A DNA stretch of 64,000 nucleotides, from positions 83,705 to 147,704 of the forward strand of contig JACRLQ010000008.1 in the NCBI GenBank assembly GCA_016215155.1. The letters are read 5' to 3'. The stretch comes from Nitrospirota bacterium (GTDB lineage Bacteria; Nitrospirota; Thermodesulfovibrionia; Thermodesulfovibrionales; UBA6898). The first letter of the stretch is position 1. Every line of letters starts with the position of its first letter. Made by a program: the position numbers and the translations under genes. Below the pieces are notes generated by a model. It had not been told where the DNA came from and made no database searches. It saw only the letters and a program-made list of their open reading frames with translations. Shown here in pieces: positions 193-25,000 of the stretch.

Positions 193-1851
193 ATGACTAA
201 GGCCTGGTTGCAAAATAAACTCAATGACCTTCGTAGGCTTCCAGCTGAAACGGAAGTCTTTGAATTTAAAGAAGCCAAGAATGGGTACGACTTCAATAAA
301 CTTGGGAAATATTTCTCTGCCTTGTCAAATGAGACAAATCTTAAAGGCCGACCTTACTCATGGCTGATTTTCGGGATTAAAGACAAGGGCAGAACAATAG
401 TCGGCAGTCGGTTTCGTCAAAATCGGAAAGACATTGATAGCCTTAAGGGAGAAATAGCCAACAAGACCACAAACCGCATCACTTTTATCGAGATACACGA
501 ACTGCATTTACCGGAAGGACGTGTGCTTATGTTTCAAGTACCGGCCGCCCCCAGAGGAATCCCCGTTGCATTTGATGGACATTACTATGGCAGAGACGGT
601 GAAGAATTGTCGCCTCTGAATATCGAGGAGATTGAACGTATAAGGTCTCAGTCAGGCATTGAAGATTGGAGCGCTGTTCTTGTGCCGGAGGCTTCAATTG
701 AAGACCTTGATCAATCGGCCATTGCAAAGGCGAGGGAAAACTATAAGAACAAGTTCCCTGAGCATTCAAAGGACGTTGACCAATGGGATGAGATTACCTT
801 TCTGAACAAAGCCAAAGTAACAATAAAGGGGAAGATTACCCGTGCGGCAATAATTCTTTTAGGAAGAACGGAAGCGGAGCACTTCATTAGTCCAGCTGAG
901 GCAAAAATACGCTGGCTGCTGAAAGACTCAAAGGGTAATGACAAGGACTATCACATTGAAAGCTGTCCTCTACTGCTGGCGGTTGATAAAATATATGCTA
1001 AAATTCGCAATTTGAAATACCGCTACATCAAGGACGGCACCTTATTCCCCGACGAGGTTGATCAATATGAACCCTTTGTAATCCGCGAAGCTATTAATAA
1101 CTGCATCGCTCACCAGGATTACACCAGGGGTGGCAGGATCAATGTGGTCGAGATGGAAGACCAGCTTATATTTACAAATCTTGGTAGCTTTATTCCGGGC
1201 TCGGTTGAAAAAGTAGTCAAAGAGGACGCGCCGGAAGAACACTACCGAAACAGGTTCCTTGCAACCGCCATGTTCAACTTAAAGATGGTTGATACTGCGG
1301 GAGGCGGCATCAGAAAAATGTTCAATTACCAGAGGGAAAGATTTTTTCCCATGCCCGAATATGATCTGACCGAAGATAGAGTGAAGGTAACAGTTATCGG
1401 AAAGGTGCTGGATATGGATTTTGCGAGGGTACTTGCCAAAAATCCGAACCTCTCCCTGGAGCAGATTGTCATGCTTGATAAGGTGCAAAAACGGAAATCA
1501 CTGATTGAGGAAGAGTGCAAATATCTTAAAGAGCTTGGTTTAATAGAGGGAAGAAAGCCTAACTATGTTATATCCGCTAAAATAACTGCGTCGCTTTCCA
1601 ATGATGAACTTAAGGCGCATTACATTAAGCAGAGGGGCCTTGATGACGAACACTACAAAAAACTTATAGTTGAGTATCTGAAAAAGTTTGGGGATGCCCC
1701 CCGGAAAAACATTGATACGTTTCTCCGGGATAAATTGCCGGATATATTGACTGAAGCCCAAAAGAAGAACAAAATTACCAACTTGCTTTCAGCTTTAAGG
1801 ATCAAGGGGTCAATTCGGAACAAGGGCTATTCTATGTGGTCTCTCGTTTAA
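193..1851 (+). CDS. AlbA_2 (Schlafen-type) domain ATP-binding protein
   Basis: 552 aa. Residues about 18-135 look like the AlbA_2/Schlafen DNA- or RNA-binding domain (EFKEAKNGYDF, LIFGIKDKG). Residues about 290-400 resemble the HATPase_c_4 domain found in the same family (FVIREAINNCIAHQDY, then TAGGGIRKMF). The C-terminal about 150 residues are probably winged-helix. Such proteins are often annotated as putative transcriptional regulators and are common in restriction and other defence loci. The start abuts the upstream stop, with GAGG just before it. The gene is followed by hsdR after 124 nt, so it lies inside a type I R-M-like operon, where its function is not established. Alternative: an independent defence effector that travels with R-M genes. 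Confidence 0.75.
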   Translation: MTKAWLQNKLNDLRRLPAETEVFEFKEAKNGYDFNKLGKYFSALSNETNLKGRPYSWLIFGIKDKGRTIVGSRFRQNRKDIDSLKGEIANKTTNRITFIEIHELHLPEGRVLMFQVPAAPRGIPVAFDGHYYGRDGEELSPLNIEEIERIRSQSGIEDWSAVLVPEASIEDLDQSAIAKARENYKNKFPEHSKDVDQWDEITFLNKAKVTIKGKITRAAIILLGRTEAEHFISPAEAKIRWLLKDSKGNDKDYHIESCPLLLAVDKIYAKIRNLKYRYIKDGTLFPDEVDQYEPFVIREAINNCIAHQDYTRGGRINVVEMEDQLIFTNLGSFIPGSVEKVVKEDAPEEHYRNRFLATAMFNLKMVDTAGGGIRKMFNYQRERFFPMPEYDLTEDRVKVTVIGKVLDMDFARVLAKNPNLSLEQIVMLDKVQKRKSLIEEECKYLKELGLIEGRKPNYVISAKITASLSNDELKAHYIKQRGLDDEHYKKLIVEYLKKFGDAPRKNIDTFLRDKLPDILTEAQKKNKITNLLSALRIKGSIRNKGYSMWSLV

Positions 1852-1890
1852 AAGAGTTTTAAAAGAGTTTTAAATGTTGTTTAAAAGAGT
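1847..1890. repeat. Three short direct repeats at gene end
   Basis: The 11-mer TTTAAAAGAGT occurs at 1847-1857, 1858-1868 and 1880-1890. The first copy contains the TAA stop of the AlbA_2 gene. The rest of the 124-nt gap to hsdR is AT-rich, with no clear terminator. It could be slippage-derived or a protein-binding site; function unknown. Confidence 0.6.
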
Positions 1891-1975
1891 GGTTGAATTA
1901 AATATAGATAAATCAAAGAGTTGCGACATAGTACAACCAGATAAATTATTAGAAATTAAATAACAACAGGGTATA

Positions 1976-5931: not shown

Positions 5932-7185
5932 ATGAATCTTATTTCCGCTCTCATTATAGTAACGTCCGCATTAATCTTAAATACATCGCCTGCCGCTGCG
6001 TCTGAAACGAAGGGGTTGACGCTTGAGCAGGCGGTCACTCTTGCCCTTGAGAAAAACCCTGACCTGCGGACTCTCAGGCTTGAAGAAGAAACAGCAAAGG
6101 GCCGCAATGAAAAGGCGCGGCTCCTGCTCATCAATAACCCTGTGATCGAAGGCAATATCTCAAAGAAGGACAGACCGGAAACAGAAGGCGGCGGGAAGTT
6201 CACGAACTACGGCGTCAAACTCTCCCAGGAATTCGAGATCGCAGGCCAGCGCAGCGCAAGGATCGATGTCGCTGAAAAAGAACTTGCCGGAGTGAAGTCG
6301 GAAATAAGAGACAAAGAAAGGGTTTTGATTTCGGACGTAAAAGACGTCTTCACTAAAACACTCGCGTTTAAGAAGAAGAGCGGCCTTGCGCAGGAGATTG
6401 TCAAATTGAATGAAGAATTGCTCGGCTACACAAAGATCAAGTTCGAGGCCGGTGATATCTCCGGGCTCGATGTCAATCTTTCAGAGGTTGAACTGAGCAA
6501 GGCAAAGAAAGAGCTTCTTCTGGCTGAACGGCAGTATAAAGAATCACTTACTGCGTTGCAGGGCCTCCTTGGCCTGGCTCCTGATATGTCCTTTGCAGTA
6601 GAAGGCGAGCTGCCGTCGGAAGTGCCGTCGCTGCCGGACAGGGGGGCCCTGAAGACATCGGCGCTGGCCCAGCGTCCTGACTCAAAGGCGAGCGTATCTG
6701 AGATGGAAAAGACGGAGGCTGCGCTGAAACTGGTAAATAAGGAGGCCGTCCCCAATATAACACTTGCGGGTTTTTACGATAGGGATGAGCGTCGCAATGC
6801 GGTGGGCCTGGCGATATCTGTCCCGCTGCCATTTTTTGACAGGAAGCAGGCCGAAAAGAAAGAGGCCTTTGCCAGGGCGGAAGGGTCAAGGATAAAGGCG
6901 GAAGGTCTAAAGAAAACCATAGACCGGGAGATCGATCAGGCGTTTAACGACATCACCTCGGCCATTGAGGAGCTCTCGCTCTTCAAAAATGAGATACTGG
7001 CAAAGGCCGCTGAAAACCTGAAGCTTCTGAACCTCGCTTTCAAGGAAGGGAAGATCGGTTTTTTTGAAGTGCGGCTCGCGCAGAAGGACACCATTGAAGC
7101 GCAGTTAGCCTATATCGAGGCGCAAACAAGGGCGCAACTTGCGCTTAACGCCATAGAAAAGACCACTGGAGGTGCGGTGAAATGA
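5932..7185 (+). CDS. TolC-family outer membrane efflux protein (CusC/CzcC type)
   Basis: 417 aa. A signal peptide (residues 1 to about 24, ending PAAAS) is followed by two TolC/OEP repeats rich in long amphipathic helices (LTLEQAVTLALEKNPDL is the family's opening motif). It would form the outer-membrane channel of a tripartite RND pump. A perfect Shine-Dalgarno AAGGAGG at 5918-5924 sits 7 nt before the ATG. The stop TGA overlaps the ATG of the adaptor gene (ATGA at 7182), consistent with translational coupling. Confidence 0.92.
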   Translation: MNLISALIIVTSALILNTSPAAASETKGLTLEQAVTLALEKNPDLRTLRLEEETAKGRNEKARLLLINNPVIEGNISKKDRPETEGGGKFTNYGVKLSQEFEIAGQRSARIDVAEKELAGVKSEIRDKERVLISDVKDVFTKTLAFKKKSGLAQEIVKLNEELLGYTKIKFEAGDISGLDVNLSEVELSKAKKELLLAERQYKESLTALQGLLGLAPDMSFAVEGELPSEVPSLPDRGALKTSALAQRPDSKASVSEMEKTEAALKLVNKEAVPNITLAGFYDRDERRNAVGLAISVPLPFFDRKQAEKKEAFARAEGSRIKAEGLKKTIDREIDQAFNDITSAIEELSLFKNEILAKAAENLKLLNLAFKEGKIGFFEVRLAQKDTIEAQLAYIEAQTRAQLALNAIEKTTGGAVK

Positions 7186-8594
7186 TTATACATAAATACA
7201 AGGCAAACTGCAGTCTGTTTAGGGTTTATAAAAAAACAACTTCCGCACAGTCCGTTCGCCCTGAGCTTGTCGAAGGGCAGAAGATCATGGTCCGACAGGC
7301 CCACCACGGGCGGATAGTTGTTCCTCCCGTTTTCAAACGGCCCCTCGCAATAATCTTTGTTGTCCTCTGTGCAGCGGTATTGCTTACGGGATGCTCTAAA
7401 AAGGAAGCGGCAAAAGAAGAAAAGCAGGTGGCGGTCGGGGAGAAGAAAGAAGCCGGCCACGAAGGAAAAGATGAAGATCAGCATGCCGGAGAACATAAAG
7501 GAGAGCACGAAGGAGAAGAGCCGGGCGTCGTGACTCTGTCGCCTGAAAAGCAGAAGTTTGCCGGAATAGAGGTCAGGAATGTGGCGCTTGAGAATGCGGC
7601 TGTTCCCCTGTCCGCAACCGCTGTTTTAGAGATAAATATGGACCGCTCCGCAAAGATCAGTCCAAGGGTGACAGGAAAGGCGGTCAGGATCACGGCGTCG
7701 CAGGGCGACAGGGTGAAGGCAGGACAGGCCCTTGCCTGGCTCGACAGCGTGGAGCTTGACCAGGCCTGGGCGGATTATCTGAAGGCGCAGGGGAAAATAG
7801 AGCTTGCGCGAAAGAACTTTCAGCGCGAGGAAACCCTGTTTGAAAAAAAGGTGGCCCCTGAAAAAGATGTCCTAAAGGCGAAGCAGGAACTGGGAGAGGC
7901 CGAGGCTGACCTTAACCTTGCAAAGGAACGCTTCAGGCTGCTTGGGGTCGATGTCTCACAGTTTAGTTCTTCAAAGGGCAATGGGAATCACCCTCTTATT
8001 CCTGTTATAACTCCTGTAAGTGGTGTGGTGCTTGAAAAAACGGTCACCCAGGGAGAGATGGTCAATCCCGAAAAGACTCTTTTTGCTGTTGCCGACCTTT
8101 CGACTCTATGGGTAGTGATCGATGTCTATGAAAAAGATATTTCCAGACTTAGGCGCGGCACCGGAGTAAAGGTGTCGGTTACCGCATTTCCTGAGAAGAC
8201 CTTCAAAGGGAAGATTTCGTATATCAGTGATGTGGTCGATGAAAAGACGAGGACCGAAAAGGCGAGGGTGACGATAGACAACTCAAGCGGAATGCTTAAG
8301 CCCGGCATGTTTGCTGCCGTGTTGACCGAGGCTGCAAGCGGCGGGACCGAACGGCTTATCGTTATTCCTGAAGAGGCGGTCATTATTGATGGCGCGAAAA
8401 GATATACCTTTATTCAAACCGCACCCGAGAAATTCCAAAGGAGAGAGATAGAAACCGGCAGATCGCTCGGGAACAGGTTGGAAGTCAAGAGCGGCCTGAA
8501 GGTGGGGGAGCCGGTTGCCGTCAAGGGGGCCTTCATCCTCAAGTCGGAGTTGAAAAAAGGTGAAATCGTCGACGAACATGGCCATGGCAAGTGA
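7182..8594 (+). CDS. RND efflux periplasmic adaptor, lipoprotein (CusB/CzcB type)
   Basis: Up to 470 aa. A lipoprotein signal ends in LLTGC (Cys71 from the ATG at 7182). It is followed by a His/Glu-rich linker (HEGKDEDQHAGEHKGEHE, probable metal binding), then a barrel-sandwich/lipoyl and alpha-hairpin region and beta-barrel, typical of HlyD/CusB adaptors. The start is ambiguous. 7182 gives the ATGA overlap with TolC, but residues 22-44 are encoded by a dispersed repeat (7248-7315), pushing the signal peptide far from the N-terminus. ATG 7287 lies inside the repeat and would give a normal-length signal peptide. The protein links the inner-membrane pump to the outer channel. Confidence 0.9.
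   Translation: MIIHKYKANCSLFRVYKKTTSAQSVRPELVEGQKIMVRQAHHGRIVVPPVFKRPLAIIFVVLCAAVLLTGCSKKEAAKEEKQVAVGEKKEAGHEGKDEDQHAGEHKGEHEGEEPGVVTLSPEKQKFAGIEVRNVALENAAVPLSATAVLEINMDRSAKISPRVTGKAVRITASQGDRVKAGQALAWLDSVELDQAWADYLKAQGKIELARKNFQREETLFEKKVAPEKDVLKAKQELGEAEADLNLAKERFRLLGVDVSQFSSSKGNGNHPLIPVITPVSGVVLEKTVTQGEMVNPEKTLFAVADLSTLWVVIDVYEKDISRLRRGTGVKVSVTAFPEKTFKGKISYISDVVDEKTRTEKARVTIDNSSGMLKPGMFAAVLTEAASGGTERLIVIPEEAVIIDGAKRYTFIQTAPEKFQRREIETGRSLGNRLEVKSGLKVGEPVAVKGAFILKSELKKGEIVDEHGHGK
7248..7315. repeat. Dispersed 'PELVEG / MVRQAHH' palindromic repeat
   Basis: CGCCCTGAGCTTGTCGAAGG followed by ATGGTCCGACAGGCCCACCA. This is the widespread repeat whose translations appear as RPELVEG, MVRQAHH and (opposite strand) FDKLRANG in proteins of many bacterial genomes. 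Here it lies in frame in the 5' part of the adaptor gene, between the overlap start and the lipoprotein signal. Confidence 0.85.
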
Positions 8595-8635
8595 ATTTAT
8601 GTTTACCAAGAAGCGCATAATAGGCTGCACAACTG

Positions 8636-8714
8636 GCCGTCATTCCCGCGAAGGCGGGAATCCATTATTTTTCACTATGTCCTGGATCCCCGGGTCAAGC
8701 CCGAGGATGACAAC
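8636..8714. repeat. REP-like dispersed repeat, full copy
   Basis: GTCATTCCCGCGAAGGCGGG, then about 20 nt, then CTGGATCCCCGGGTC and AGGATGACAAC: two palindromic halves. It fills most of the 165-nt gap between adaptor and pump genes. Related copies are at 5360 and 60634. It may form a stable hairpin in the operon mRNA. Confidence 0.8.
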
Positions 8715-8759
8715 TGATGATTCTGTTCGCAGACTTTATTTAACGGGAGATAATCGATC

Positions 8760-11700
8760 ATGTTAGAAAAGTTGATTGAATATACGTTAAAGCAGAAAGG
8801 AATGGTTATATTTCTTTCGCTTCTGATTATGACAATCGGATTTTATTCATATATGAAATTGCCGATTGACGCCTTCCCTGATGTAACAAACATTAAGGTT
8901 GAAGTAGTAAGCCATGCGGATGGACTATCCGCCGCAGAGATCGAGAGAAACGTGACCTACCCGATTGAGATGGCGATGCGCGGCTTGCCTGATATAGAGC
9001 AGATGCGTTCAGTTACAAAGTTCGGGCTCTCAATCGTGACGATAGTTTTCAAAGATAATGTCGATATTTACTTTGCGCGGCAGTTGGTGTTCGAACGACT
9101 TGCTGAAGCGAGAGAAAAGGTCCCCAAAGGCGTTGAAATTGCGATGGGCCCGATTGGCACGGCAATGGGTGAAATTTATCAATATACCCTTGAAGGAAAA
9201 ATGCCGGAGGACCCGCTTCAGAAAAAAGCTTACCTGACAAACCTGCGGACAATTCAGGAGTGGATCATAACGCCGCAGTTGAAGAGTGTTGCGGGAGTAA
9301 ACGAAATCAATTCTTTCGGAGGATACTTCAAACAGTACCAGGTGATAGTGTCGCCGGAAAAACTGCTGCAGCATGCAGTGACCGTGGACGATGTGTACTC
9401 GGCCATCGGCAGCAACAATGAAAACGTCGGCGGCAATATTCTGGAACGGGGCACTGATCAATACATTGTCCGCGGGGTAGGACTGATAAAAGATGTCAGC
9501 GACATAGAAAACATTGTGTTGAAATCTGAACACGGGACGCCGACCTGCGTCCGTGATGTCGCCCAGGTTAAGATCGGCGAAGCCGTGCGCATGGGCGCCG
9601 CCATGAAAAACGGCAAGGATGAATGTGTCGGCGGCATCGTCATGATGCTGCGCGGTGAAAACAGCCGGGATGTTGTGCGCCGGGTGGCGGAGAAAGTCAA
9701 GGAAATCAATGAAAATAATATCCTTCCCGAAGGCCTCAAGATAGCCCCTTATTACGATAGAAGTGACATAGTGAGCGCCAGCGTCAGCACGGTAAACAAG
9801 GCGCTGATCGAAGGCTCCCTTCTTGTGCTGATCGTGCTTTATCTGTTGCTCAACAGCATACGGGGGAGTATAGTTGTTCTCATCGCGTTACCGCTGTCAC
9901 TCTTAGGCACGTTCATAGTGATGAAGCTTGCGGGAATCAGCGCAAACCTGATGTCCCTCGGCGGCCTTGCAATTTCAATCGGAATGATAATAGACACAAC
10001 CATAATTCAGGTCGAAAACGTGCAGCGACATTTAAGCGAGGAGGGCGGGAAACATCCCAAATTATTTACGGTGCTTAAAGCCGTTATGGAAGTCAGAAAG
10101 CCGAGCATCTTCGGAGAGCTAATCATAGCGCTTACCTTCATCCCGATCCTCTCCCTCGAAGGGATCGAAGGGAAGATGTTCGGACCGTTGGCCTTGACGG
10201 TTGCGATTGCGCTCCTCGCCTCCCTGTTCCTCTCCGTCTTTGTTATCCCGGTCCTCTGCCTGCTGTTTTTGAGACCCCAGGCGGAAAAAGAAAGCTTTAT
10301 CATGAAGCGTGCAAGCAGGCTTTATCTGCCGCTGATTGAATATGCAATGAGCAACAAAAAAGTAATACTGGGCATAGCTGGTGTATTTTTGATAGCGTCT
10401 CTGTTTTTAGCGACAAGATTAGGGACTGAGTTTATTCCGACCATGGACGAAGGCTCCTTTGACATGGATGTGTCAATGCTTCCAGGCGTTTCCCTTGCGA
10501 CCTCGGTGGAAGTGAACCAGCGCGCAGCGGAAAAGCTGAAGGCATTTGATGAACTGGATATAGTGGTAGCGCGAACAGGACAGACCGGCATTGCCCTGGA
10601 TACCAGGGGGACTGATAAAACCGCTTATGTGGGAATATTCAAGCCGAAGAAACAATGGAAACGGGACATTTCAAAGGAAGCATTGACCAATGAGATGCGC
10701 GAGTCCCTGGAATCTATACCGGGAATCACCTTCGGCTTCAGCCAGCCGATCCAGTGCCGCATTGACGAACTCGTCGCCGGGACCCGCGCGCAGCTGATTC
10801 TCAAGCTCTTTGGGGAAGATATTGACGTACTGAGCGATAAATCGGCTGAAATTGCAAAGGTGCTTTCAACCATCAAAGGCGGGACCGATTTAGCCGCTGA
10901 AAAGGTCTCCGGGCAGCCCTATCTGACCGTAAATATAGACCGGTCCAGAATCGCACGGTATGGCCTGAATATCAGCGACGTTCAGAAGGTGATCGAAATA
11001 GCTGTTGCCGGAAAATCAGCCACCAAATTTTACGAAGAAAACCGCAGCTTCGATATATCGGTCCGCCTGCCTGAAGAAAAAAGGAATTCGCTTGAGGCGA
11101 TCAAGAATCTGATGATCACCACGAAAACCGGCAGCAATGTTCCGCTCGAACAGCTGGCAGAGGTGAAACTTATCGAAGGCCCGGTCCAGATAAGCCGCCA
11201 GGACGGGGGCAGAAGGGTCGGGATCGAGATGAACATCACCGGCAGGGACATAGGCGGTTTTGTCGCGGAGGCAAAACAGAAGATAAAAGAGAAGGTCAAG
11301 CTGCCTGCCGGATATTATCTTACCTGGGGCGGACAATTTGAAAATCAGCAGCGTGCGATGAAGAAGCTGATGATCATTGGACCTGTTGCCATCGGATTAA
11401 TACTGCTTCTTTTATACGTTACCTTCAGATCGGTCCGCCTGGCGCTGTTGGTTATTTCGAACCTGCCGTTTGCCTTGATCGGCGGGGTCTTCGCTCTATA
11501 TATATCAAAACAGTATTTATCCGTTCCGGCATCTGTGGGCTTTGTCGTCCTGTTCGGCGTTGCCGTGCTGAACGGGCTGGTGCTGGTGTCGCGCATCTCG
11601 CAACTGCGCGATGAAGGACTTGATCTGCGGGAGGCGATCAGGAAGGGAAGTGTTGACAGATTGCGCCCTGTCTTAATGACCGCATCTATCGCAATTTTCA

Positions 11701-11864
11701 GTTTAATACCGATGCTGCTTGCAGGCGGCGCCGGCTCCGAAATTCAAAAGCCGCTTGCAACGGTGGTTGTCGGCGGCTTGATTACGTCGACTCTGCTTAC
11801 GCTATTGATTATTCCTTCGGTTTACGGCTGGTTTGAAAAGAGAGAGGTCGAGGAGGAAATGTAA
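8760..11864 (+). CDS. Heavy-metal efflux RND transporter (CusA/CzcA family)
   Basis: 1034 aa, the usual RND length, with two sets of transmembrane helices and two large periplasmic loops. The N-terminus (PIDAFPDVTN, then EIERNVTYPIEMAMRGLP) is diagnostic of the heavy-metal (HME) subfamily. The TM4 proton-relay region reads GMIIDTTIIQVEN with Asp412. This differs from the DFG...DGA signature of CzcA and the AMVDAAIVMIEN of CusA, so the substrate (Cu/Ag versus Zn/Co/Cd/Ni) cannot be assigned. A moderate Shine-Dalgarno (GGGAG) precedes the ATG. The TAA stop is the first base set of a palindromic repeat. Confidence 0.93.
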   Translation: MLEKLIEYTLKQKGMVIFLSLLIMTIGFYSYMKLPIDAFPDVTNIKVEVVSHADGLSAAEIERNVTYPIEMAMRGLPDIEQMRSVTKFGLSIVTIVFKDNVDIYFARQLVFERLAEAREKVPKGVEIAMGPIGTAMGEIYQYTLEGKMPEDPLQKKAYLTNLRTIQEWIITPQLKSVAGVNEINSFGGYFKQYQVIVSPEKLLQHAVTVDDVYSAIGSNNENVGGNILERGTDQYIVRGVGLIKDVSDIENIVLKSEHGTPTCVRDVAQVKIGEAVRMGAAMKNGKDECVGGIVMMLRGENSRDVVRRVAEKVKEINENNILPEGLKIAPYYDRSDIVSASVSTVNKALIEGSLLVLIVLYLLLNSIRGSIVVLIALPLSLLGTFIVMKLAGISANLMSLGGLAISIGMIIDTTIIQVENVQRHLSEEGGKHPKLFTVLKAVMEVRKPSIFGELIIALTFIPILSLEGIEGKMFGPLALTVAIALLASLFLSVFVIPVLCLLFLRPQAEKESFIMKRASRLYLPLIEYAMSNKKVILGIAGVFLIASLFLATRLGTEFIPTMDEGSFDMDVSMLPGVSLATSVEVNQRAAEKLKAFDELDIVVARTGQTGIALDTRGTDKTAYVGIFKPKKQWKRDISKEALTNEMRESLESIPGITFGFSQPIQCRIDELVAGTRAQLILKLFGEDIDVLSDKSAEIAKVLSTIKGGTDLAAEKVSGQPYLTVNIDRSRIARYGLNISDVQKVIEIAVAGKSATKFYEENRSFDISVRLPEEKRNSLEAIKNLMITTKTGSNVPLEQLAEVKLIEGPVQISRQDGGRRVGIEMNITGRDIGGFVAEAKQKIKEKVKLPAGYYLTWGGQFENQQRAMKKLMIIGPVAIGLILLLLYVTFRSVRLALLVISNLPFALIGGVFALYISKQYLSVPASVGFVVLFGVAVLNGLVLVSRISQLRDEGLDLREAIRKGSVDRLRPVLMTASIAIFSLIPMLLAGGAGSEIQKPLATVVVGGLITSTLLTLLIIPSVYGWFEKREVEEEM

Positions 11865-11937
11865 CCCCCCAAACCTCCCCTTGACAGGGGAGGCTTAAAG
11901 GCTTCCCCCCTGACAAGGGGGGACTGAGGGGGGTTGG
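11863..11937. repeat. Solo copy of the C-tract/G-tract palindromic repeat
   Basis: AACCCCCC at the left and GGGGGGTTGG at the right enclose two smaller hairpins (CTCCCCTTGACAGGGGAG and CCCCCCTGACAAGGGGGG). It belongs to the arm family that surrounds the DUF559 gene at 59.2-60.1 kb. It overlaps the pump stop codon and ends 32 nt before the PII start, so it could modulate expression of the last operon gene. Confidence 0.8.
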
Positions 11938-11969
11938 TTTGGACTTTAATCAAACATAAGGAGAACAGC

Positions 11970-12311
11970 ATGAAAGAGATTAAGGCGATAATAAGACCGT
12001 CTAAATTATTGGAAGTAACCGAAGAACTGCATGAAATCGAAGGCTTGCCCGGCGTGACTGTATCGGAGATCAAAGGATTCGGTAAAGGCAGGGCGAAGAA
12101 CGCTAAAGACAAAATTGTTTATGAAATGGTGGAATTTATTCCTAGAATAAAACTGGAAGTTGTTGTAAATGATGAAATGGTCGAGAAAGTCATCAACGTG
12201 ATTCAGAAGTTCTCTCATACCGGCAATACCGGTGACGGAAAAATATTTGTGGTCAATGTTGAAGAAACAATAAAGATTAGAACAAAAGAAAGAGGGAAGG
12301 ATGCGATTTAA
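11970..12311 (+). CDS. PII-family protein linked to metal efflux (PII-NG type)
   Basis: 113 aa, PII length. It starts MKEIKAIIRPSKL, as in GlnB, and has the ferredoxin-like core. The T-loop region lacks the uridylylation-site context of GlnB (here GFGKGRAKNAKDKIVYEM), so classical nitrogen signalling is unlikely. A 'PII-NG' subgroup encoded beside CusA/CzcA-type pumps is known; this gene fits by sequence and position. It probably senses a small ligand or metal and modulates the pump. An in-frame upstream start (11934) would add 12 residues, but ATG 11970 has a good AAGGAG and is preferred. Confidence 0.85.
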   Translation: MKEIKAIIRPSKLLEVTEELHEIEGLPGVTVSEIKGFGKGRAKNAKDKIVYEMVEFIPRIKLEVVVNDEMVEKVINVIQKFSHTGNTGDGKIFVVNVEETIKIRTKERGKDAI

Positions 12312-12473: not shown

Positions 12474-14342
12474 ATGAGTATTCGCGTTACCAGAAGGGAT
12501 TTTCTAAATGGCGCACTTCTTGGCGCCGGGGCGCTCCTGCTTGAGCTCCCTGCTCCATTGAAACTGTTCGCCCAATCTCAGCCGACTCGGGGCTCCGCGG
12601 GAATAGGTGATTATGCAGCTTCGAACGGGAACACTGCCCAGGTTATCAGCGCATTCAGGGCCATAGAAAAAGGTGACTACAAATCTCTGATATTGGACTC
12701 AATTGATACCGGCGAAATATACGATTTTGTAGTAGCCGGCGGCGGGCTGAGCGGATTGGGGGCGGCCTATGAGTTTAACAGGTCCTCTTCAAAACACGCC
12801 AAATGCCTTATCCTCGAAAACCACGCGATCTTTGGAGGAGCCGCAAAAAGAAATGAGTTCATGGTGCAGGGGGTCCGGCTCATCGGGCCGCAGGCCTCGA
12901 ATGCCTTCGGCGTAATAGACCGCCCGGGCGTCCCGGGATATGATATTTACGGTGAACTGGGAATACCGACGGAATTTGAATATGGAGAGTTGCCGGCCGG
13001 CCTGAAGCCGCTGGATTTTGACGCGACGAACTTTGGTTACCGCCTCTGGTTCGATTCAAAGAGCGTTGGTCACTTCTATGCGGGTAAGGGACAGGGCGAC
13101 CCCGGGTATTGGGTGGCCGGTCTTTGGGGGGACAAACTCTCCGGCGCGCCCTATTCTGAAAAGGTCCGGAAAGATTTCCTCCGTTGGCGAAATATACCGG
13201 AGCGCCGGTATAGCGGTGAAGATTACGGCCGTTGGCTGGATTCAATGACCTACAAGGATTATCTGGAAAAGGTCCTGAAGCTTGATCCGGCGGTAACGCG
13301 ATATGCCGACCCCGTGCTTGCCAGCGTGGCAGGACTTGGATGCGACGTCATCAGCGCTTACACGGCCCGTCAGGTCTCGATGCCGGGGTTCCCGGAGTTT
13401 CTGGGGCGGCGTTCATTAAAAAACAGCCACTGGCATTCATTCCCGGGTGGAAATGACGGCTTCTCAAGGCATTTCATAAAGGCACTTATCCCGGATGCTA
13501 TCGAAGGCGGCAGGAACTTCGCCGATATACACAACGGCCCTGTGCGCTTCCCCGCCTTGGACCTCGAGAAAAACAGGGTCCGTATGAGGTTGTCCTCCAC
13601 TGTTGTCCGGGTTGAGCAAAAAGACGGCCCCCGTAATGATAAAAACATAAGCATCGTGTATCTGCGGGAGGGCAGGCTTTATCGTCTCAGGGCACGAAGT
13701 CTCGTAATGGCAGGCGGCAGCCGTGTGGCCAGGAAAGTTGTCTTAGGTCTGCCTTCCGGCCATGCTGACGCCTATGCCCAGTTCCATGTAGCTCCCATAC
13801 TGGTAGTGAACGTGGCCCTCACCAACTGGCGTTTTCTTTACAGACTTGGTGTTACCGCCTGCAAATGGTCGGACGGTTTCGGTTTCGGCTGTAATATCCG
13901 CAAACCAATGTATGTTGGGGATTACCGGCCGCCGCTTCACCCTGACAGACCGATCGTTCTGACTTTTTACATTTCGTTTCACAAGCCCGGTCTCCCGATC
14001 GGGGAGCAGGGGGAATACGGGAGAAAGCAGCTCCTTGGAACAAGCTTTGCTGAATTCGAATCTCTTATAGTGGGGCAGATGAAACGACTTTTCGCGGGGA
14101 CGGGATTCGAGGAAGGAAAAGATATAGCCGGCATCATCCTTAACCGCTGGACCTATGCCTATGTAAACCCGCAGCCGGGTTTTTACTTCGGCAAAGATGG
14201 TGGAACGCCGCCACGGGACATTATTCGCAGGCCCTTTGGACATATTGCCTTCGCCCATGCCGAACTTAACGGACATCAGCATTGGGTGGCGGCCGTGGAG
14301 GAAGGCAGGAGGGCGGCCGGACAGGCGATGGAAGGGTTGTGA
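12474..14342 (+). CDS. Tat-exported FAD-dependent oxidoreductase, spermidine-dehydrogenase-like
   Basis: 622 aa. The twin-arginine signal has VTRRDFLNG (R7, R8) followed by a hydrophobic stretch and a probable cleavage after about residue 33. The FAD-binding Rossmann motif is VAGGGLSGLGAAYEF (G89-G96). It is followed by ILENHAIFGGAAKRNEF, the pattern seen in periplasmic spermidine dehydrogenase (SpdH) and relatives. C-terminal FGHIAFAHAELNGHQHW resembles the flavin-capping segment of amine-oxidase-like proteins. It would be folded in the cytoplasm and act in the periplasm on an amine or similar substrate. The next two genes, both related to spermidine synthase, support a polyamine-type role, but substrate is inferred. 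Confidence 0.82.
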   Translation: MSIRVTRRDFLNGALLGAGALLLELPAPLKLFAQSQPTRGSAGIGDYAASNGNTAQVISAFRAIEKGDYKSLILDSIDTGEIYDFVVAGGGLSGLGAAYEFNRSSSKHAKCLILENHAIFGGAAKRNEFMVQGVRLIGPQASNAFGVIDRPGVPGYDIYGELGIPTEFEYGELPAGLKPLDFDATNFGYRLWFDSKSVGHFYAGKGQGDPGYWVAGLWGDKLSGAPYSEKVRKDFLRWRNIPERRYSGEDYGRWLDSMTYKDYLEKVLKLDPAVTRYADPVLASVAGLGCDVISAYTARQVSMPGFPEFLGRRSLKNSHWHSFPGGNDGFSRHFIKALIPDAIEGGRNFADIHNGPVRFPALDLEKNRVRMRLSSTVVRVEQKDGPRNDKNISIVYLREGRLYRLRARSLVMAGGSRVARKVVLGLPSGHADAYAQFHVAPILVVNVALTNWRFLYRLGVTACKWSDGFGFGCNIRKPMYVGDYRPPLHPDRPIVLTFYISFHKPGLPIGEQGEYGRKQLLGTSFAEFESLIVGQMKRLFAGTGFEEGKDIAGIILNRWTYAYVNPQPGFYFGKDGGTPPRDIIRRPFGHIAFAHAELNGHQHWVAAVEEGRRAAGQAMEGL

Positions 14343-14497
14343 AAAAATGTTTATTAGCCGCCTGTATTTTTAGTAAACTAATATATGGCGGTTAAGACTC
14401 CGGCTTTCCCCTCCAGCCGCCTGAATATTAAGATTCGCTGAGGACCTGCCCGCCCGGCGGTAATTTGGCCGGCAAAAAAAGCGCCCAAGGAGTCGTA

Positions 14498-15418
14498 ATG
14501 GTGAAGATATGTTACCTGCTGGTTTTTTATTGTGTGTTATTCCCCTCGTCCGGATTTGCTTCCGGGTCATCTGAGAAGCTGCTGTTCGAGAAGAACTCCC
14601 TGTACCAATACATTGCCGTTATCGAGGACACGGTCAAAAAAGAGCGCTATGTCCGAAACCAGAAAAAAGAATATGCTCAGGGGGGGATCTACGTGAATGC
14701 CCCGGAAAAGCTCCTCTATGAATTTACCCAGATGGGTTTCGTGGCTCTGGCATTTATGGAGAGAGACCCGCAGGATGCGCTTTTTGTGGGACTTGGGGCA
14801 GGGGCCATGCCGAGGTATTTTAGCAGTCACTACCCAAAGGCCAATATCGACATTGCCGAAATAGACCCGGACATGCCGGCGGTAGCCCGGAAGTATTTCC
14901 ACTTCAGGGAGACTGACCGGATGAAGGTCCATGTCGATGACGGGAGATTGTTCGTCAAAAGGGCCAGGAAAAAGTATGATTTGATAGTCCTAGATGCCTA
15001 CCAGAATGACTACATCCCGTTTCACCTGACCACCCTTGAGTTTCTGAAAGAAGTCAAAAGCAGGCTTAAGGAGGAGGGCGTGGTCGTATCCAACATAACC
15101 TCTACATTCAGGAACAAGTTCTTCGATTCAATGGTTATGACATATAAAAAGGCATTCTCCAATTTCTATATTCTCAAAGGGAAAAAGTCCGGTAACTTTA
15201 TCTTTATTGCAACGGCAGGCGGTAAGATTAAGGACAAATCCAATGTTGAGGCAAAGGCCCGCAAAATCCAGTCTGACCGGAAAATGGATATTGACCTTGA
15301 AGACTTTGCGGCCCGATACGAGACGGCCGACTCATACGAGTGGGACAGGGCAAAGATACTCACCGATGACTTTGCTCCTGTAAACCTCTACCAGCATCAG
15401 AAGTCGGGGGCGCAATAA
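14498..15418 (+). CDS. Secreted spermidine-synthase-like protein
   Basis: 306 aa from the ATG at 14498, chosen because AAGGAG precedes it and a clear signal peptide follows (MVKICYLLVFYCVLFPSSGFA). The Rossmann methyltransferase-like core has GLGAGAMPRYF in place of the GGGDG loop, the acidic cosubstrate motif EIDPDMPAVA, DDGRLF, and LIVLDAYQNDYIPFHLTT at the active-site strand. The canonical aminopropyltransferase Asp motif is changed, so real spermidine synthesis is uncertain. In many bacteria this domain is fused behind an MFS-like membrane domain; here that membrane half is the next gene (12-nt gap). Exported location is unusual for an enzyme needing decarboxylated SAM. Confidence 0.8.
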   Translation: MVKICYLLVFYCVLFPSSGFASGSSEKLLFEKNSLYQYIAVIEDTVKKERYVRNQKKEYAQGGIYVNAPEKLLYEFTQMGFVALAFMERDPQDALFVGLGAGAMPRYFSSHYPKANIDIAEIDPDMPAVARKYFHFRETDRMKVHVDDGRLFVKRARKKYDLIVLDAYQNDYIPFHLTTLEFLKEVKSRLKEEGVVVSNITSTFRNKFFDSMVMTYKKAFSNFYILKGKKSGNFIFIATAGGKIKDKSNVEAKARKIQSDRKMDIDLEDFAARYETADSYEWDRAKILTDDFAPVNLYQHQKSGAQ

Positions 15419-15430
15419 GGAGGTGACGTT

Positions 15431-16054
15431 ATGATTAAGTTTGTTGTTTTTATTTGCGGAGCGGTAGTCATGTCGTTCGAAATTTTAGGCAGCAGGGTGC
15501 TCGCCCCGAATTTTGGAAGTTCTGTTTTTGTCTGGGGGAGCCTGATCAGCGTTTTTTTGGCCGGTCTCTCCACGGGCTACTACCTTGGCGGCCGGCTCGC
15601 CGACAGGACCCCATCGTCACGTAAATTGAGTCTGATGATTTTCATGCCGGGGATACTCTTTATAGCCTTCCCGCTCTATAGCGCTCCTATCGCAGACTGG
15701 ATTTTCATGAAGGACCTTGGCGTCAGGACCAGCCCGCTTCTGGCATCCGTAGCGTTATTTCTGGTCCCTTCCGTTTTTCTTGGCATCGTAAGCCCGTATA
15801 CCGCAAAACTGATGATATGCAGCCTTCATACCTCGGGCAAGACGATCGGGACGCTCTATGCCCTTTCGACGTTCGGCAGCATTGTCGGGACGGTCGCCAC
15901 ATCGTTTTATCTCATAACGGTAGCCGGCACGAATGCACTGATCATGGCGCAAGGGGTTTTGCTGATCGTGCTGGCTGTTACTCTTTATTTCATGAATTTG
16001 AGCTGCAGCACAGTGCAGGCTGGTTCGAACGGCATGATGAATGATACCAGATGA
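15431..16054 (+). CDS. Membrane protein, MFS-like half of split MFS/spermidine-synthase-like fusion
   Basis: 207 aa with about six predicted transmembrane helices. FEILGSRVLAPNFGSS, WGSLISVFLAGLSTGYYLGG and YTAKLMICSLHTSGKTIGTLYALSTFGSIVG are split here for length; together they match the N-terminal membrane domain of fused MFS/spermidine synthase proteins. A perfect Shine-Dalgarno (AAGGAGGTGA) precedes the ATG. It likely forms a complex with the secreted synthase-like protein upstream. Function (transport or anchoring) is unknown. Confidence 0.8.
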   Translation: MIKFVVFICGAVVMSFEILGSRVLAPNFGSSVFVWGSLISVFLAGLSTGYYLGGRLADRTPSSRKLSLMIFMPGILFIAFPLYSAPIADWIFMKDLGVRTSPLLASVALFLVPSVFLGIVSPYTAKLMICSLHTSGKTIGTLYALSTFGSIVGTVATSFYLITVAGTNALIMAQGVLLIVLAVTLYFMNLSCSTVQAGSNGMMNDTR

Positions 16055-16162: not shown

Positions 16163-19100
16163 ATGGGGCTGAAGGAATATCTACAGAAGATCGCGGATGC
16201 AGGCAGCAGGGGAGATGCTCGGGAAGAGACGTATTACCCCGTCCTTAAAGACCTGATTGAAGAATATTCCAGTTCAACCGGCAAGAGAAAGAGCCACGTT
16301 ACAGTCCTTCCTAAAAAGACGGAGGCAGGCAATCCCGATTTCAGGATATGGGACGGCAGTCAGCATATAACGGGCTACATAGAAGCAAAGGACCCCTCTG
16401 TTGAAAACCTTGACCGCATAGAGGATTCGGAACAGCTTAAAAGATACCTGCATACCTTTCCAAACCTGATACTTACCAACTTCCTTGAGTTCAGGTTATA
16501 CCGTAATGGAGAATTGACGGATAAAGTCCTTATAGGCAGACCTGTAATACTCAACAAGCTGAAGACCGCGCCACCTCTTGAAAAGGAGGCAGAACTGGTG
16601 CAGCTTTTAGAGAAGTTCTTCTCCTTCTCCATTCCGAAAGTCTATAACGCCAGGACCCTAGCGATAGAGCTTGCCAAAAGGACACGGTTCCTGAAGGACG
16701 AGGTTATATCACAGGAGTTGAGGGAAGAGGAAGAGACAGGCAAGGGTTTTATTCAGGGGTTCTATGAAGCCTTCAAGGAATACCTTATCAGCAGTCTTAC
16801 AGAGGACGAATTTTCAGACCTATATGCTCAGACAATCACTTATGGACTGTTTGCGGCCCGCACCCGTTCTGAAAACGGCTTTAACCGGAAGCTTGCCTAT
16901 GACAATATCCCCCAGACAATCGGCATCCTGAGAGATGTTTTCCAGTTTGTTTCTTTAGGCTCTCTCCCTCAGCAGATGGAATGGATCATCGATGATATTT
17001 CTGAAATCCTGGCCGTCACCGATATAAATAAAATCCTTCATGAATACTTCCATGAGGGCAAGGGCAAGGATCCCATCATACATTTCTATGAAACATTTCT
17101 TTCAGAGTATGACCCCAAAACAAGGCAGATGAGAGGAGTATATTACACTCCTGAACCGGTGGTTTCCTATATAGTCCGATCTCTCCATAGCATTCTGAAG
17201 GAGCAGTTCAATAAACCCGATGGGTTCGCAGATAAGAATGTGACCGTATTGGACCCTGCGGCAGGAACGCTGACCTTTTTAGCCGAGACGGCAAAGCTTG
17301 CGGTTGATGAATTTGTTTCCAGATACGGAGAGGGAGGCAGAAAGAACTTTATAAAAGACCATATCCTGAAAAACTTCTATGCCTTCGAATTAATGATGGC
17401 CCCGTATGCTATCGGTCATTTAAAGATGTCGTTTCTGCTTGAAGAATTAGGATACAGGCTACAGAAGGATGACAGGGTAAAGCTGTATCTTACCAACACC
17501 CTTGAGATGGAAGAACTCCCGGAAACAAGGCTTCCGGGCATGTCGTCGCTGTCCGAGGAATCGCACCTTGCAGGAAAGGTCAAGAAAGAGCAGCCGATAT
17601 TGGTAATTATGGGGAACCCGCCCTATTCAAAGAGCTCAGTAAATAAGTCGGCGTTCATTGAACATGAGATGGCTCTTTATAAAGAGGATGTTTCTGAAGA
17701 AAAGAACATCCAGCCTCTTTCAGATGATTATATAAAATTCATGCGCTTCGCGCACTGGAAGATAGAACAGGACGGCAAGGGAATTATCGGGTTGATAACA
17801 AACAACTCATATCTTTCAGGTGTAATTCACCGGGGAATGAGAAAAAAGCTGTTTGCTAGCTTCGATGAGATATATATCCTGAATCTTCACGGAAGCAGTC
17901 GGTTTGGTGAAAAGTCTCCGGACGGCGGCAATGACGAAAATGTCTTTGACATTCAGCAGGGTGTGGTCATTGCTCTTTTTGTAAAGAGAGACGATCGCAG
18001 CAGAGGGTGCAAAATATTTTATCAGGACGTCTTCGGGTTACGGGATAATAAATATGACTACTTGGGTAAGTCTGATATTCACACGACAAAGTGGAAGGCG
18101 TTAAAACCTTCAGAGCCTTATTATTTCTTTGATGAAAAGGACTTCTCCCTGCAAAGCACCTATGACAAGTTTGCTTCTATTACAAAAGTTTTCAATGTTT
18201 ATTCAAGTGGTGTAAAGACCAATCGCGACCATTTTCTAACTGATTTTGACCTCAAGGCACTTGATAGAAGGATTCAGACGATGCGGGATAATAAGTTAGA
18301 TAATGAACTTTTCAGGAAGACCTATAATCTGACCGACGGGACTTATTGGAACACAGAGCGTGAGAGGGGAAAAGTGCGGAATAACGACAATTGGCGCAGC
18401 CAATTTTATAAATTCGCGTACCGTCCTTTCGATATGCGTTGGATTTTTTATCAGCCTAATCTTATCGAAATTGGGCGTGGTGGCGCAAGCAAAGACACTA
18501 TGAGACATTTCTTTAAAGAGAATATAGGGTTAATATCCGCGCGGAACAGCAAGTCATCGATTGTAAATCATTTTTTCTGCAGCAATGCCGTTACTGACAT
18601 GAAATGCGGAGAATCTACGATTCAATCTTATGTATTCCCCCTCTACCTATACAAGACGCCGGACAAACCCAATAAACGCTCTTTTGGCCAGGCAATGATG
18701 CTGTTTGAGCCCGAGGCGGAATACGGTGTGAAAAAGCCAAACCTGTCAGCTGAGATTGTCGATAAACTGTCGAAAGCGTATAAGAAAACACCTTCTCCCG
18801 AGGAAATCTTCTATTACATTTATGCGGTCCTTTATTCGGAGACATACAGAACAAAATATGCGGAGTTCCTGAAGATAGACTTTCCGAGGGTGCCGTTTAC
18901 AAAGGACTATAAGTTGTTCAGAAAAATGTCTGAATATGGAAGCAGACTTGTTGACCTTCACCTGTTGAAATCGCGGGCGCTTGATTCGCCGATTGCACGG
19001 TTTCAGGGCGAGGGTGACAGCAGGGCGGGAAAGCCGAAATATGATGATAATACTGACCGTGTATATATCAACAAAGAGCAATACTTCGAAGGCATTTCAA

Positions 19101-19291
19101 CGGCGGTGTGGAACTACCAAATCGGAGGTTACCAGGTTTGTGACAAATGGCTAAAGGACAGGAAGGAACGGATACTGACCCTTGAGGAGATTCAGACCTA
19201 TTGCAGGATAGTCACGGCAATCGAGGAAACTATTAAAATACAGAAAGCCATAGACGGTATATATGCTGCTTTAGAAGCGGAGATTATTTAA
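16163..19291 (+). CDS. Single-chain restriction-modification enzyme (type ISP/IIG-like)
   Basis: 1042 aa. The N-terminal nuclease domain carries D59 and E74-A-K76 (GYIEAKDPS), a PD-(D/E)xK pattern. A helical linker leads to an N6-adenine methyltransferase with YYTPEPVVSYIVRS, motif I DPAAGTLTF (D364) and motif IV NPPYS (485-489). The remaining about 450 residues would hold the target-recognition domain. I see no helicase motifs, so the protein resembles stand-alone type II (IIG-like) enzymes rather than the longer ATP-driven type ISP LlaGI, although databases often label both 'type ISP'. It has no partner genes and would both cut and methylate. The gene appears intact. Confidence 0.88.
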   Translation: MGLKEYLQKIADAGSRGDAREETYYPVLKDLIEEYSSSTGKRKSHVTVLPKKTEAGNPDFRIWDGSQHITGYIEAKDPSVENLDRIEDSEQLKRYLHTFPNLILTNFLEFRLYRNGELTDKVLIGRPVILNKLKTAPPLEKEAELVQLLEKFFSFSIPKVYNARTLAIELAKRTRFLKDEVISQELREEEETGKGFIQGFYEAFKEYLISSLTEDEFSDLYAQTITYGLFAARTRSENGFNRKLAYDNIPQTIGILRDVFQFVSLGSLPQQMEWIIDDISEILAVTDINKILHEYFHEGKGKDPIIHFYETFLSEYDPKTRQMRGVYYTPEPVVSYIVRSLHSILKEQFNKPDGFADKNVTVLDPAAGTLTFLAETAKLAVDEFVSRYGEGGRKNFIKDHILKNFYAFELMMAPYAIGHLKMSFLLEELGYRLQKDDRVKLYLTNTLEMEELPETRLPGMSSLSEESHLAGKVKKEQPILVIMGNPPYSKSSVNKSAFIEHEMALYKEDVSEEKNIQPLSDDYIKFMRFAHWKIEQDGKGIIGLITNNSYLSGVIHRGMRKKLFASFDEIYILNLHGSSRFGEKSPDGGNDENVFDIQQGVVIALFVKRDDRSRGCKIFYQDVFGLRDNKYDYLGKSDIHTTKWKALKPSEPYYFFDEKDFSLQSTYDKFASITKVFNVYSSGVKTNRDHFLTDFDLKALDRRIQTMRDNKLDNELFRKTYNLTDGTYWNTERERGKVRNNDNWRSQFYKFAYRPFDMRWIFYQPNLIEIGRGGASKDTMRHFFKENIGLISARNSKSSIVNHFFCSNAVTDMKCGESTIQSYVFPLYLYKTPDKPNKRSFGQAMMLFEPEAEYGVKKPNLSAEIVDKLSKAYKKTPSPEEIFYYIYAVLYSETYRTKYAEFLKIDFPRVPFTKDYKLFRKMSEYGSRLVDLHLLKSRALDSPIARFQGEGDSRAGKPKYDDNTDRVYINKEQYFEGISTAVWNYQIGGYQVCDKWLKDRKERILTLEEIQTYCRIVTAIEETIKIQKAIDGIYAALEAEII

Positions 19292-22091: not shown

Positions 22092-25000
22092 TCAGCGGAC
22101 CGTAATATTTTCGATCGTCATGCTTCCGCCCTCCGCTCCTCCTATTGTTATTTTGCCGTTTACAGTCGTATGCGCGCCCGCGTTCGACGAATAGCCGCAA
22201 TCGTAGCCTCCGGTCAGGCGCACATGTTTTATACCATTGAAGAGGAGGTCTTCGGTCAAGGTAATCCCGCGGACTTTCAGGGCAGCCCCGTTTTGAGCGG
22301 CGTTATACCCGCCCTGGATGGAGGAGTGATAATTTGGCGCATTATCCACTACCAAAGAATGCGCATTGAAGGCCGCGCTTGTTGCCCTGCTGCTGTCCAT
22401 GAGGAGCGTGCAGAGACTTTCAGAGCCGGAGCATGCGCCGGTCCATCCGTTAAAATAGGAGCACGCGTCGACCGGCGTAGCGGTAAGATCGACTGAAGTC
22501 ACGGAATAATAATTTGCCGTCCCTATATCTCCGGTCCATTGCAAAACCCCTGTGTTCACCGTCACATTTCCGCTGCCCTGGCCTGTTTTGCTTACTGTCA
22601 GAGTGAAGGCGATAGAATAGTCTGCGCTCTTTATAACTTCGGAATTAGTGAGGCTGTCCGCGGAGAAGAACCTCAAAGTCGTGGAGCTTGCGACGTTTAT
22701 CGGGCCGCTGTATGGCGTCGCCGGCGCGCACGCAGCTCCGGTGCAGTAATATGTGCCCGCGCAACCGGAGCCCGAGCCGTCGCTGCATGAAAGCGTCACG
22801 CTCTGTGCGCTTCCGTATGTGCCTCCGGCCGGAGACGCGGTAGTCACCGGCGCAGTCATATCCAGAAGTATCGTGTCGCTGTATGCGCCCGACCAGTTGC
22901 CGAGGGTGTCTTTGAATTTCACGTACACGGTTTTCGTTCCATCTCCGGAACCGAGCGTCCGTGATTTGGTTGTCGCATATCCCTCTTCGACTGACCAGCC
23001 GGCGTTGTCGTCGCTGAATTTCATATGGCTGCAGCCGTTTGAATCAGAACATGTAAGCGTCAGGGTTGCGGAGGTCGAAGCAGTAGCCGCGTTTCCGGAG
23101 TTGATTGTTATGCTCCCGCTGGGGGCTCCGCCGTCGATGACGTACGACTCGGTCTTGACCGTCTCATTATTGTTGACGCTGTCTTTTGAATAGAATCGCA
23201 GAGTCGTAGTGGATGAAATATTCAGCGCGCCGCTGTAAAGTGTCGTCGGGGCGCAGGCGTCGCCGGTGCAGTAATACCTGGCGTTACAGCCCGACCCTGT
23301 GCCGTCCGAGCATGAAAGCGTCACGCTCTGTGCTGAGCTGTATGTGCCGCCTGCCGGAGAGGCGCTGCTGACGGGCGCAGTCTGATCGAGGAGGATGGAG
23401 TCATTGTAGGCTCCGGACCAGTTGCCGAGTGTATCTTTGAACTTCACGTACACCGTCTTAGCGCCGTCTCCCGAGGGAAGCGTACGGGCCTTGCTCGCGG
23501 CATAGCTCTCTTCGACGGACCAACTCACGTTGTCGTCGCTGAATTTCATGTGGCTGCAGCCGTTCGAATCAGAACATGTAAGCGTCAGGGTTGCGGACGT
23601 GGAAGCCGTGGCTGCGGCCCCGGAGTTGATGGTAATCGTCCCGGTCGGGGCGGAGGCATCGATTACGTACGTCTCTGTCCTGACCGTCTCGTTGTTTGTT
23701 GCGCCGTCTCTCGAGTAGAACCTCAAGATTGTGGAACTACCGATGTAAATTGAGCTGGTGAATGAAGTGCCTGGTGTACAGTCCACCCCGGTGCAGTAGT
23801 ATGTGTCTGTGCAGCCCGAACCGCTTCCGTCGTTACAGGTAAGCTCCACGTTTTGCTGGCTGCCGTGGGTGCCCCCGGCGGGAGAGGCTGTTGTCACCGG
23901 CGCGGTGGTATCGAGGATAATAGAGTCGCTGTAGGCGCCCGACCAGTTGCCTATGGCATCTTTGAATTTCACGTATATGGTCTTCGCGCCATCTCCCGAG
24001 GGGAGCGTACGGGCCTTGCTCGTGGCATAGTCCTCGGCTGCCGACCAAAGCGAATTGTCATCGCTGAACCGCATCTGGCTGCACCCGTTTGCATCAGCAC
24101 AGGTGAGGGCGAGCGTGACCGCCGTGGCGTTCGTCGATACTGCGCCCGAGTTGATGCTTATCGTTCCGGTCGGCGCCGAGGCATCGATGACGTATGTCTC
24201 CGTCTTTACACTCTCATTGTTGTTTGCTCCGTCTATCGAATAGAACCTCAGGGTCGTCGTACTCGAAATATTCAGCGCGCTGCTGTACAGCGTTGTCGGC
24301 GTGCATCCTTCGCCGGTGCAGTAATACCTTGTGCCGCAGCCTGAGCCGGCAGTGTCGGAGCATGAAAGTGTAACGGTCTGTGCTGTTGCATACGAGCCCC
24401 CCGCCGGGGAGGCGGTCGTCACGGGCGCGGCAGTATCGAGGAGAATCGCATCGCTGTATGCGCCCGACCAGTTGTTTACGGTGTCCTTGAATTTCACATA
24501 TATCGTCTTTGTCCCGTCGCCGGAACCGAGCGTCCGTGCTTTGGTTGTTGCATATCCCTCTTCGACGGACCAGCCGACGTTGTCGTCACTGAATTTCATC
24601 TGTGCGCAGCCGTTGGCGTCCGTGCAGGTGAGCGCCAGAGTGACCGAGGTGGAATTCGTGGCTGCGGCCCCCGAGTTGATCGTTATCGTCCCGGTCGGCG
24701 CCGAGGCATCGATGACATATGTCTCTGTCCTGATATTTTCGATGTTGCCGACGAAGTCCTCCGACTTGAATCTCAGTGTTGCGGATGCCGATATATTGAT
24801 CGGGCCGATGTAGAGGCTTGACGGCGTGCAGTCCGTGCCGGTGCAGTAATGGGTAGGGTTACAGCCGGAGCCTGCTCCATCAGAGCATGAAAGCGTGATG
24901 CTCTGTGCGGCGCCGTAGGTTCCCCCGGCTGGAGAGGCGGTAGTCACAGGCGCGGTCGTATCGAGTTTTGTATCATCAAATATCAGGAAAGTCGACCAGT

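Follow-up and report, generated by a model that had tools for sequence, protein, structure and literature searches.

A conserved cassette of Nitrospirota pairs a Tat flavoprotein with a split spermidine synthase-like protein

Proteins joining seven transmembrane helices (7TM) to a spermidine synthase (SpdS)-like domain form a common family, named for a reaction that is probably not its own. The 7TM and SpdS-like protein NHMT (AN4663), which has I in place of D/E in motif I, methylates the N-terminal histidine of exported lytic polysaccharide monooxygenases. The D/E replacement was used as an argument for its being a methyltransferase rather than a spermidine synthase, and its authors describe it as unique to filamentous fungi (PMC10349129). 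METTL13 is a protein N-terminal methyltransferase, with eEF1A as its target (PMC8624817). In the spermidine dehydrogenase of Pseudomonas aeruginosa (PaSpdH), electrons pass from flavin adenine dinucleotide (FAD) to a surface haem b, with His54 and His562 as ligands (PMC12564564). We describe here a three-gene cassette encoding a protein related to SpdH with a twin-arginine translocation (Tat) signal (the FAD protein), an SpdS-like protein with a putative signal peptide (the synthase-like protein) and a membrane protein (the membrane half). The cassette lies in a stretch of 64,000 nucleotides (hereafter the window; contig JACRLQ010000008.1 of assembly GCA_016215155.1) from a Nitrospirota genome of 3.43 Mb. 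Its neighbourhood recurred in 30/30 Nitrospirota genomes with an FAD gene of about 50% identity or higher, and we give about an even chance to the reading that it constitutes a methyl-transfer system located outside the cytoplasm, probably linked to metals and partnered by a flavoenzyme.

Conservation of the cassette

An open reading frame (ORF) check of the window placed all three genes on the + strand, at the positions listed in Table 1. Together with the match to SpdH and the matches to the two halves of model NF037959, this check confirmed the kinds and places assigned to the genes by the initial annotation, which was made from the sequence alone. Conservation was investigated in 150 relatives of the window genome and in a draw of 395 genomes from the phylum; both samples were joined for a count of the Nitrospirota genomes with an FAD gene of roughly 50% identity or higher, of which there were 30. 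The FAD gene was present in 25 of the 150 relatives, and an SpdS-like domain was matched (E 1e-10) in 73, many of these matches being fused frames of 500 aa. The phylum sample contained the FAD gene in 26/395 genomes, three of which (G257, G260 and G393) had matches of just 29–32% identity; no synthase-like gene was found for these distant matches at E 1e-35, and they lie outside the count of 30.

In all 30 genomes, a synthase-like gene was located on the contig of the FAD gene within 3,453 bases, and the distance was no greater than 755 bases in 28 of them. The two spacing outliers had intervening genes: a second set of ORFs in G008 and, in G022, a restriction-modification gene (L036:1630-4830, the same gene as L084) that is 76% identical to the type ISP/IIG gene of the window and separates the FAD and synthase-like genes. 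The spacing between the synthase-like gene and the membrane gene was 14–36 bases (29/29 genomes). The FAD gene was inverted yet still adjacent in L069, L074 and L079, suggesting that the link goes beyond a shared transcript. Chance is excluded as an explanation for the recurrence of this neighbourhood in 30/30 genomes. The gene-order search proposed with the initial annotation, which was also its own test of the grouping, therefore found the cassette kept together.

Two cassettes were seemingly broken: the synthase-like gene of L050 (1984-2876) lies in two frames, and both the FAD and synthase-like genes of L051 (3782-5510) are shortened. These breaks could be assembly errors.

The split synthase-like protein and the flavoprotein

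For the synthase-like gene, the ATG at 14498 was preferred to the TTG at 14465 given as the start in the ORF list, because it has an AAGGAG sequence, resembling a ribosome-binding site, upstream and agrees with the N-termini of the orthologues. By hydropathy, residues 4–22 are hydrophobic and constitute a putative signal peptide; the likely −1 residue is A in most orthologues, and some have AxA. This hydrophobic N-terminus, and the twin-arginine motif of the FAD protein, bear out the export that had been proposed for the two soluble proteins. The synthase-like protein scored 120.5 bits (cut-off 40) against model positions 250–478 of NF037959, “fused MFS/spermidine synthase” (MFS, major facilitator superfamily), and the membrane half scored 119.1 bits (cut-off 40) against positions 2–182. 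Both genes therefore pass the cut-off, each covering its own half, and two genes stand in place of the single chain of this family in the window and its orthologues. The proposal that the membrane gene is a separate half of a fused family was thus upheld. The score of the synthase-like protein against the spermidine synthase family TIGR00417 (speE), 54.8 bits, was below the cut-off of 249.55.

The acidic residue of motif I was absent from 39/39 aligned synthase-like sequences. GLGAG and DAYQND (or a close variant) were the rule in this alignment; both are usual in the family, and their earlier description as deviant motifs was overstated. The acid of the AEID motif (E in 38/39 sequences, D in 1/39) aligned with an acid of METTL13 that we take to be the Glu binding the ribose of S-adenosylmethionine (AdoMet). 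A non-acidic motif I combined with a retained AdoMet-ribose acid is the arrangement of the NHMT type. In spermidine synthases, the invariant Asp of motif I leaves a pocket too small for the carboxylate of AdoMet (PMC1282579). By sequence, motif I of the synthase-like protein is of the AdoMet type rather than of the decarboxylated AdoMet (dcAdoMet) type. A profile search of solved structures placed METTL13 (5wcj) first, with an E of 4.1e-22, whereas the top Foldseek matches of an AlphaFold 2 (AF2) model (predicted local distance difference test score, pLDDT, of 79) were the SpeE structures 3gjy and 1uir, as befits an SpdS fold. The profile favours 5wcj and the fold favours SpeE, so the fold alone is not decisive.

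Relatives of the synthase-like protein (40–45% identity) without a signal peptide or membrane partner were found in L072, L075 and L077, and these proteins look cytosolic from their sequences. The synthase-like gene and lgt share four bases in genus g51 (L079:3802-5489 and L078:7342-9032; 241 bits with TIGR00544 for L079), hinting at an activity on protein N-termini in the envelope. The window genome encodes an AdoMet decarboxylase (PF02675, above the cut-off). It gave no match above the curated speE cut-off, but this cut-off is strict (passed by 4/14 control genomes), and failure to pass it is therefore no proof that polyamine synthesis is missing.

Six helices were predicted for the membrane half by hydropathy and from its AF2 model (pLDDT 75.8). 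Its best Foldseek matches were MFS transporters, with weak support (E 0.04), and a sequence search of the PDB with this half found no solved relative. By hydropathy, the SpdS-like domain was preceded by seven hydrophobic helices in four fused relatives, whereas the split form had six and its catalytic half carried a putative signal peptide. As the signal peptide takes the place of helix 7, we infer that the SpdS-like domain probably lies outside the inner membrane in both the fused and the split forms. The split as such is ruled out as a novelty, because Proteobacteria have split pairs in RefSeq, with the adjacent halves both named “fused MFS/spermidine synthase”. The plasmid hosts of these pairs, in which the membrane half comes first, were Pseudoalteromonas, Xanthomonas, Pseudomonas syringae, Sphingomonas and Aeromonas; in Halococcus, the two parts are fused.

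The FAD protein begins MSIRVTRRDFLNG, which holds the twin-arginine motif, and its residues 5–615 matched PaSpdH (7d9j/7d9i/7d9f) with an E of 2.6e-48, such that homology to SpdH and a Tat signal are both present. Haem ligands were counted in an alignment of 33 rows, 31 of them different (two identical pairs), with a query start ≤30 and end ≥600; partial FAD genes were dropped, and L112 was left out, no ORF having passed the filter. Ligands 54 and 562 were both present in 13 rows (PaSpdH, two from Gemmatirosa and ten from Nitrospirota) and both absent from 20 (the window and 19 relatives), and no row had one alone. The 20 rows without ligands formed one group (support 100/100), consistent with a single loss. 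In genome G008, a haem-type FAD gene and its haem-less paralogue lie in tandem (L081:3358-7323). The D and Y found at positions 282 and 443 of PaSpdH were kept in 0/32 other rows. These two positions differ between the deposited chains 7d9i and 7d9j, differences that we take to represent engineered active-site mutants. With D282 and Y443 absent, and the haem ligands lost in the window clade, the name spermidine dehydrogenase should not be transferred. The likeness to spermidine dehydrogenase put forward in the initial annotation therefore holds for sequence, SpdH being the closest relative, but not for these residues. Judging from sequence, an amine-like substrate is the default guess for this FAD family.

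Metal setting and rival explanations

In many relatives, a protein of about 135 aa is encoded between the FAD and synthase-like genes. In this His-rich protein, HxH comes after a hydrophobic helix at the N-terminus, HLH/HPH lies centrally and SGLSPP/SGVSPP is C-terminal. Its profile gave a strong match in 15/150 genomes, 53–112 bases upstream of the synthase-like gene in 15/15; no model for it was found in Pfam and NCBIfam, with just two weak, sub-threshold matches in one search. The gene is also present in G039 and G049, both of which lack the FAD gene, and in G022 the protein is reduced to its last 25 residues. Weak relatives with an SGLSPP end directly precede CzcC-CzcB-CzcA in the window's own genome (L119:3486-3902) and in G100 (L122:6167-6601); two further weak matches (L120 and L121) were not ahead of CzcCBA. 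A cation diffusion facilitator (CDF) gene lies downstream of the membrane gene in L044, L050, L051 and L070 (the family was confirmed for L070 and also for the gene of L044, which is that of G013). In L071, a heavy-metal P-type ATPase gene lies nearby. Together, CzcCBA, the CDF and P-type ATPase genes, and an HxH/GLSPP protein also found ahead of CzcCBA, suggest a role in metal stress. The metal link is real in part, but not universal.

In the methyl-transfer reading, the synthase-like and membrane halves would together rebuild the architecture of the fused family, “7 TM + SpdS-like domain”. The catalytic domain would lie outside the inner membrane and transfer the methyl group of AdoMet to an exported substrate, either a protein or a metabolite, by comparison with the fungal NHMT in the endoplasmic reticulum. 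The Tat FAD protein may oxidise an amine-like C–N bond in this substrate or in one linked to it and, in the window clade, would hand on the electrons with no need of the haem b that SpdH uses. The cassette would serve the envelope during metal stress. The new extracytoplasmic chemistry raised in the initial annotation is a possibility, and would more probably be methyl transfer from AdoMet than polyamine chemistry. The least certain elements are the substrate, the extracytoplasmic source of AdoMet, and any part played by the membrane half in transport or anchoring. A more specific proposal, according to which the split enzyme writes N-methyl groups (perhaps on histidines or N-termini of exported proteins that bind metals) and the flavoenzyme removes them or oxidises them further, such that reversible methylation tunes metal binding in the envelope, is distinctly unlikely; the small HxH protein would perhaps be one candidate target.

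Several observations weigh against the methyl-transfer reading. We know of no supply of AdoMet to the periplasm. The closest folds of the synthase-like protein are those of aminopropyltransferases, with METTL13 (5wcj) at rank 12 in Foldseek. The His-rich gene is absent from the cassette of the window. An RND (resistance-nodulation-division) or CDF gene was found within 6 kb in just 8/23 cassette genomes (61 genomes searched; the eight being G000, G004, G007, G008, G013, G022, G024 and G039), partly reflecting shared ancestry; this is a hand count with weaker RND matches unlisted, inflated by shared synteny, for an estimated expectation of about 0.85 from RND/CDF density. Finally, four genomes have the pair but lack the FAD gene (G039, G049, G085 and G010, the last of which retains an FAD fragment), indicating that the FAD step is not obligatory. 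The same four genomes would be expected if the pair and the FAD protein were linked just by regulation, within a metal- or stress-responsive envelope regulon, and had different substrates. The FAD relatives on Gemmatirosa plasmids (43–45% identity), which lack a pair within 8 kb, also favour this explanation, as does an additional FAD copy in G390, located apart from the pair. However, in the 30 Nitrospirota genomes with an FAD gene at or above about 50% identity, this gene was never without a nearby pair, and the adjacency survives inversion; we therefore consider regulation alone to be unlikely, while granting it a small but real chance.

A periplasmic polyamine cycle, in which a polyamine produced outside the cytoplasm by the synthase-like protein would then be oxidised by the SpdH-like protein, would be consistent with the SpdS fold, with the status of SpdH as the sole solved relative of the FAD protein, and with the AdoMet decarboxylase (PF02675) of the genome. 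It is nevertheless quite improbable, given that the acidic dcAdoMet residue is missing (39/39), the score is far under the speE cut-offs, D282 and Y443 are absent from 32/32 relatives and the haem ligands from 20/33 rows, and dcAdoMet is made in the cytoplasm. The polyamine link made in the initial annotation is unsupported on the first two of these points (54.8 bits versus 249.55 for speE). More improbable still is a small-molecule metal chelator built by aminocarboxypropyl transfer, like nicotianamine or staphylopine, with the FAD enzyme finishing the product and the membrane half moving it. The metal-efflux setting and the AdoMet-sized motif I would agree with such a product, as would the description of nicotianamine synthase as a Rossmann-fold aminoalkyltransferase (PMC1282579), but nicotianamine-synthase families were not among the reported Pfam/NCBIfam matches, the neighbourhoods examined contained nothing resembling chelator uptake, and synthesis outside the cytoplasm would be odd.

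A role in phage defence was rejected; PADLOC gave no match for the FAD protein or the membrane half, and a weak “mad2” match lay over the methyltransferase core.

Window context and comparison with known systems

The metal-efflux genes upstream of the window cassette include an RND gene scoring 1153.7 bits, above the TIGR00914 cut-off. Downstream lies the type ISP/IIG restriction-modification gene (16163-19291). Elsewhere in the window, a Schlafen AlbA_2-type protein is encoded beside a type I restriction R-like protein (193-4975), and the minus strand has an open frame of 2722 codons (22092-30260). A scan for promoters and terminators was uninformative (9 promoter-like sequences versus 4.3 expected, and 2 terminator-like sequences versus 4.6 expected).

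Table 1. Features of the cassette and its upstream neighbours in the window
Feature	Position	Strand	Basis
FAD oxidoreductase, predicted Tat-exported, spermidine dehydrogenase family, haem-less clade	12474..14342	+	622 aa; SpdH full-length match; Pfam NAD_binding_8
Twin-arginine motif RRDFLNG	12492..12512	+	sequence; invariant across 27 aligned rows
SpdS-fold, AdoMet-methyltransferase-like, predicted exported protein	14498..15418	+	306 aa; NF037959 C half; PF01564; AF2 model
Putative signal peptide, likely cleavage after GFA	14498..14560	+	hydrophobic residues 4-22
Motif I GLGAG (residues 98-102), without the acidic residue of spermidine synthases	14789..14803	+	39-sequence alignment
DAYQND (residues 166-171), corresponding to the catalytic-strand Asp region in SpdS and in METTL13	14993..15010	+	alignment
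Membrane half, six-helix, half-MFS-like, partner of the synthase-like protein	15431..16054	+	207 aa; NF037959 positions 2-182
OEP, CusB-type HlyD and CzcA-type RND metal-efflux genes, then P-II protein; directly upstream	5932..12311	+	Pfam

The open-access literature searches found no description of this cassette, which is best seen as a well conserved pairing of known protein kinds: its parts are ordinary and the set is unusual and previously unremarked within the literature searched. That the split occurs naturally and leaves the catalytic half with a putative signal peptide of its own is direct sequence evidence for a domain that would work outside the cytoplasm, where AdoMet chemistry is unexpected, and the constant flavoenzyme partner, in haem-bearing and haem-less versions, provides a concrete route to the substrate. 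If the methyl-transfer reading is true, many proteins now annotated as “spermidine synthases” would have to be considered candidates for exported methyltransferases.

The PspA-CesT/Tir operons have the same 7TM-SpdS fusion architecture and an envelope-stress setting, but their protein is fused, and the cited passages on them do not mention an SpdH-like gene (PMC11237479). The split pairs of Proteobacteria differ in gene order, and no SpdH-like gene was annotated in the stretches examined. The cassette shares with the NF037959 family six or seven helices, an SpdS-like domain and similar motifs, but consists of two genes, with the synthase half first. The FAD protein resembles P. aeruginosa SpdH (7d9f-7d9j) from end to end, in its Tat signal and in its FAD motif, but both haem b ligands are missing from the window clade, and residues 282 and 443 are replaced. 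Among solved structures, the C-terminal domain of METTL13 (5wcj) is the best sequence match for the synthase-like protein, although METTL13 is human, cytosolic and without a membrane partner. By its description, NHMT has in common with the cassette enzyme the 7TM and SpdS-like methyltransferase design, the loss of the D/E of GxG(D/E)G, an AdoMet-binding Glu and, as predicted for the cassette enzyme, a place on the extracytoplasmic side; the cassette enzyme differs in being split and bacterial, with six helices and a signal peptide, by hydropathy, where NHMT has seven helices.

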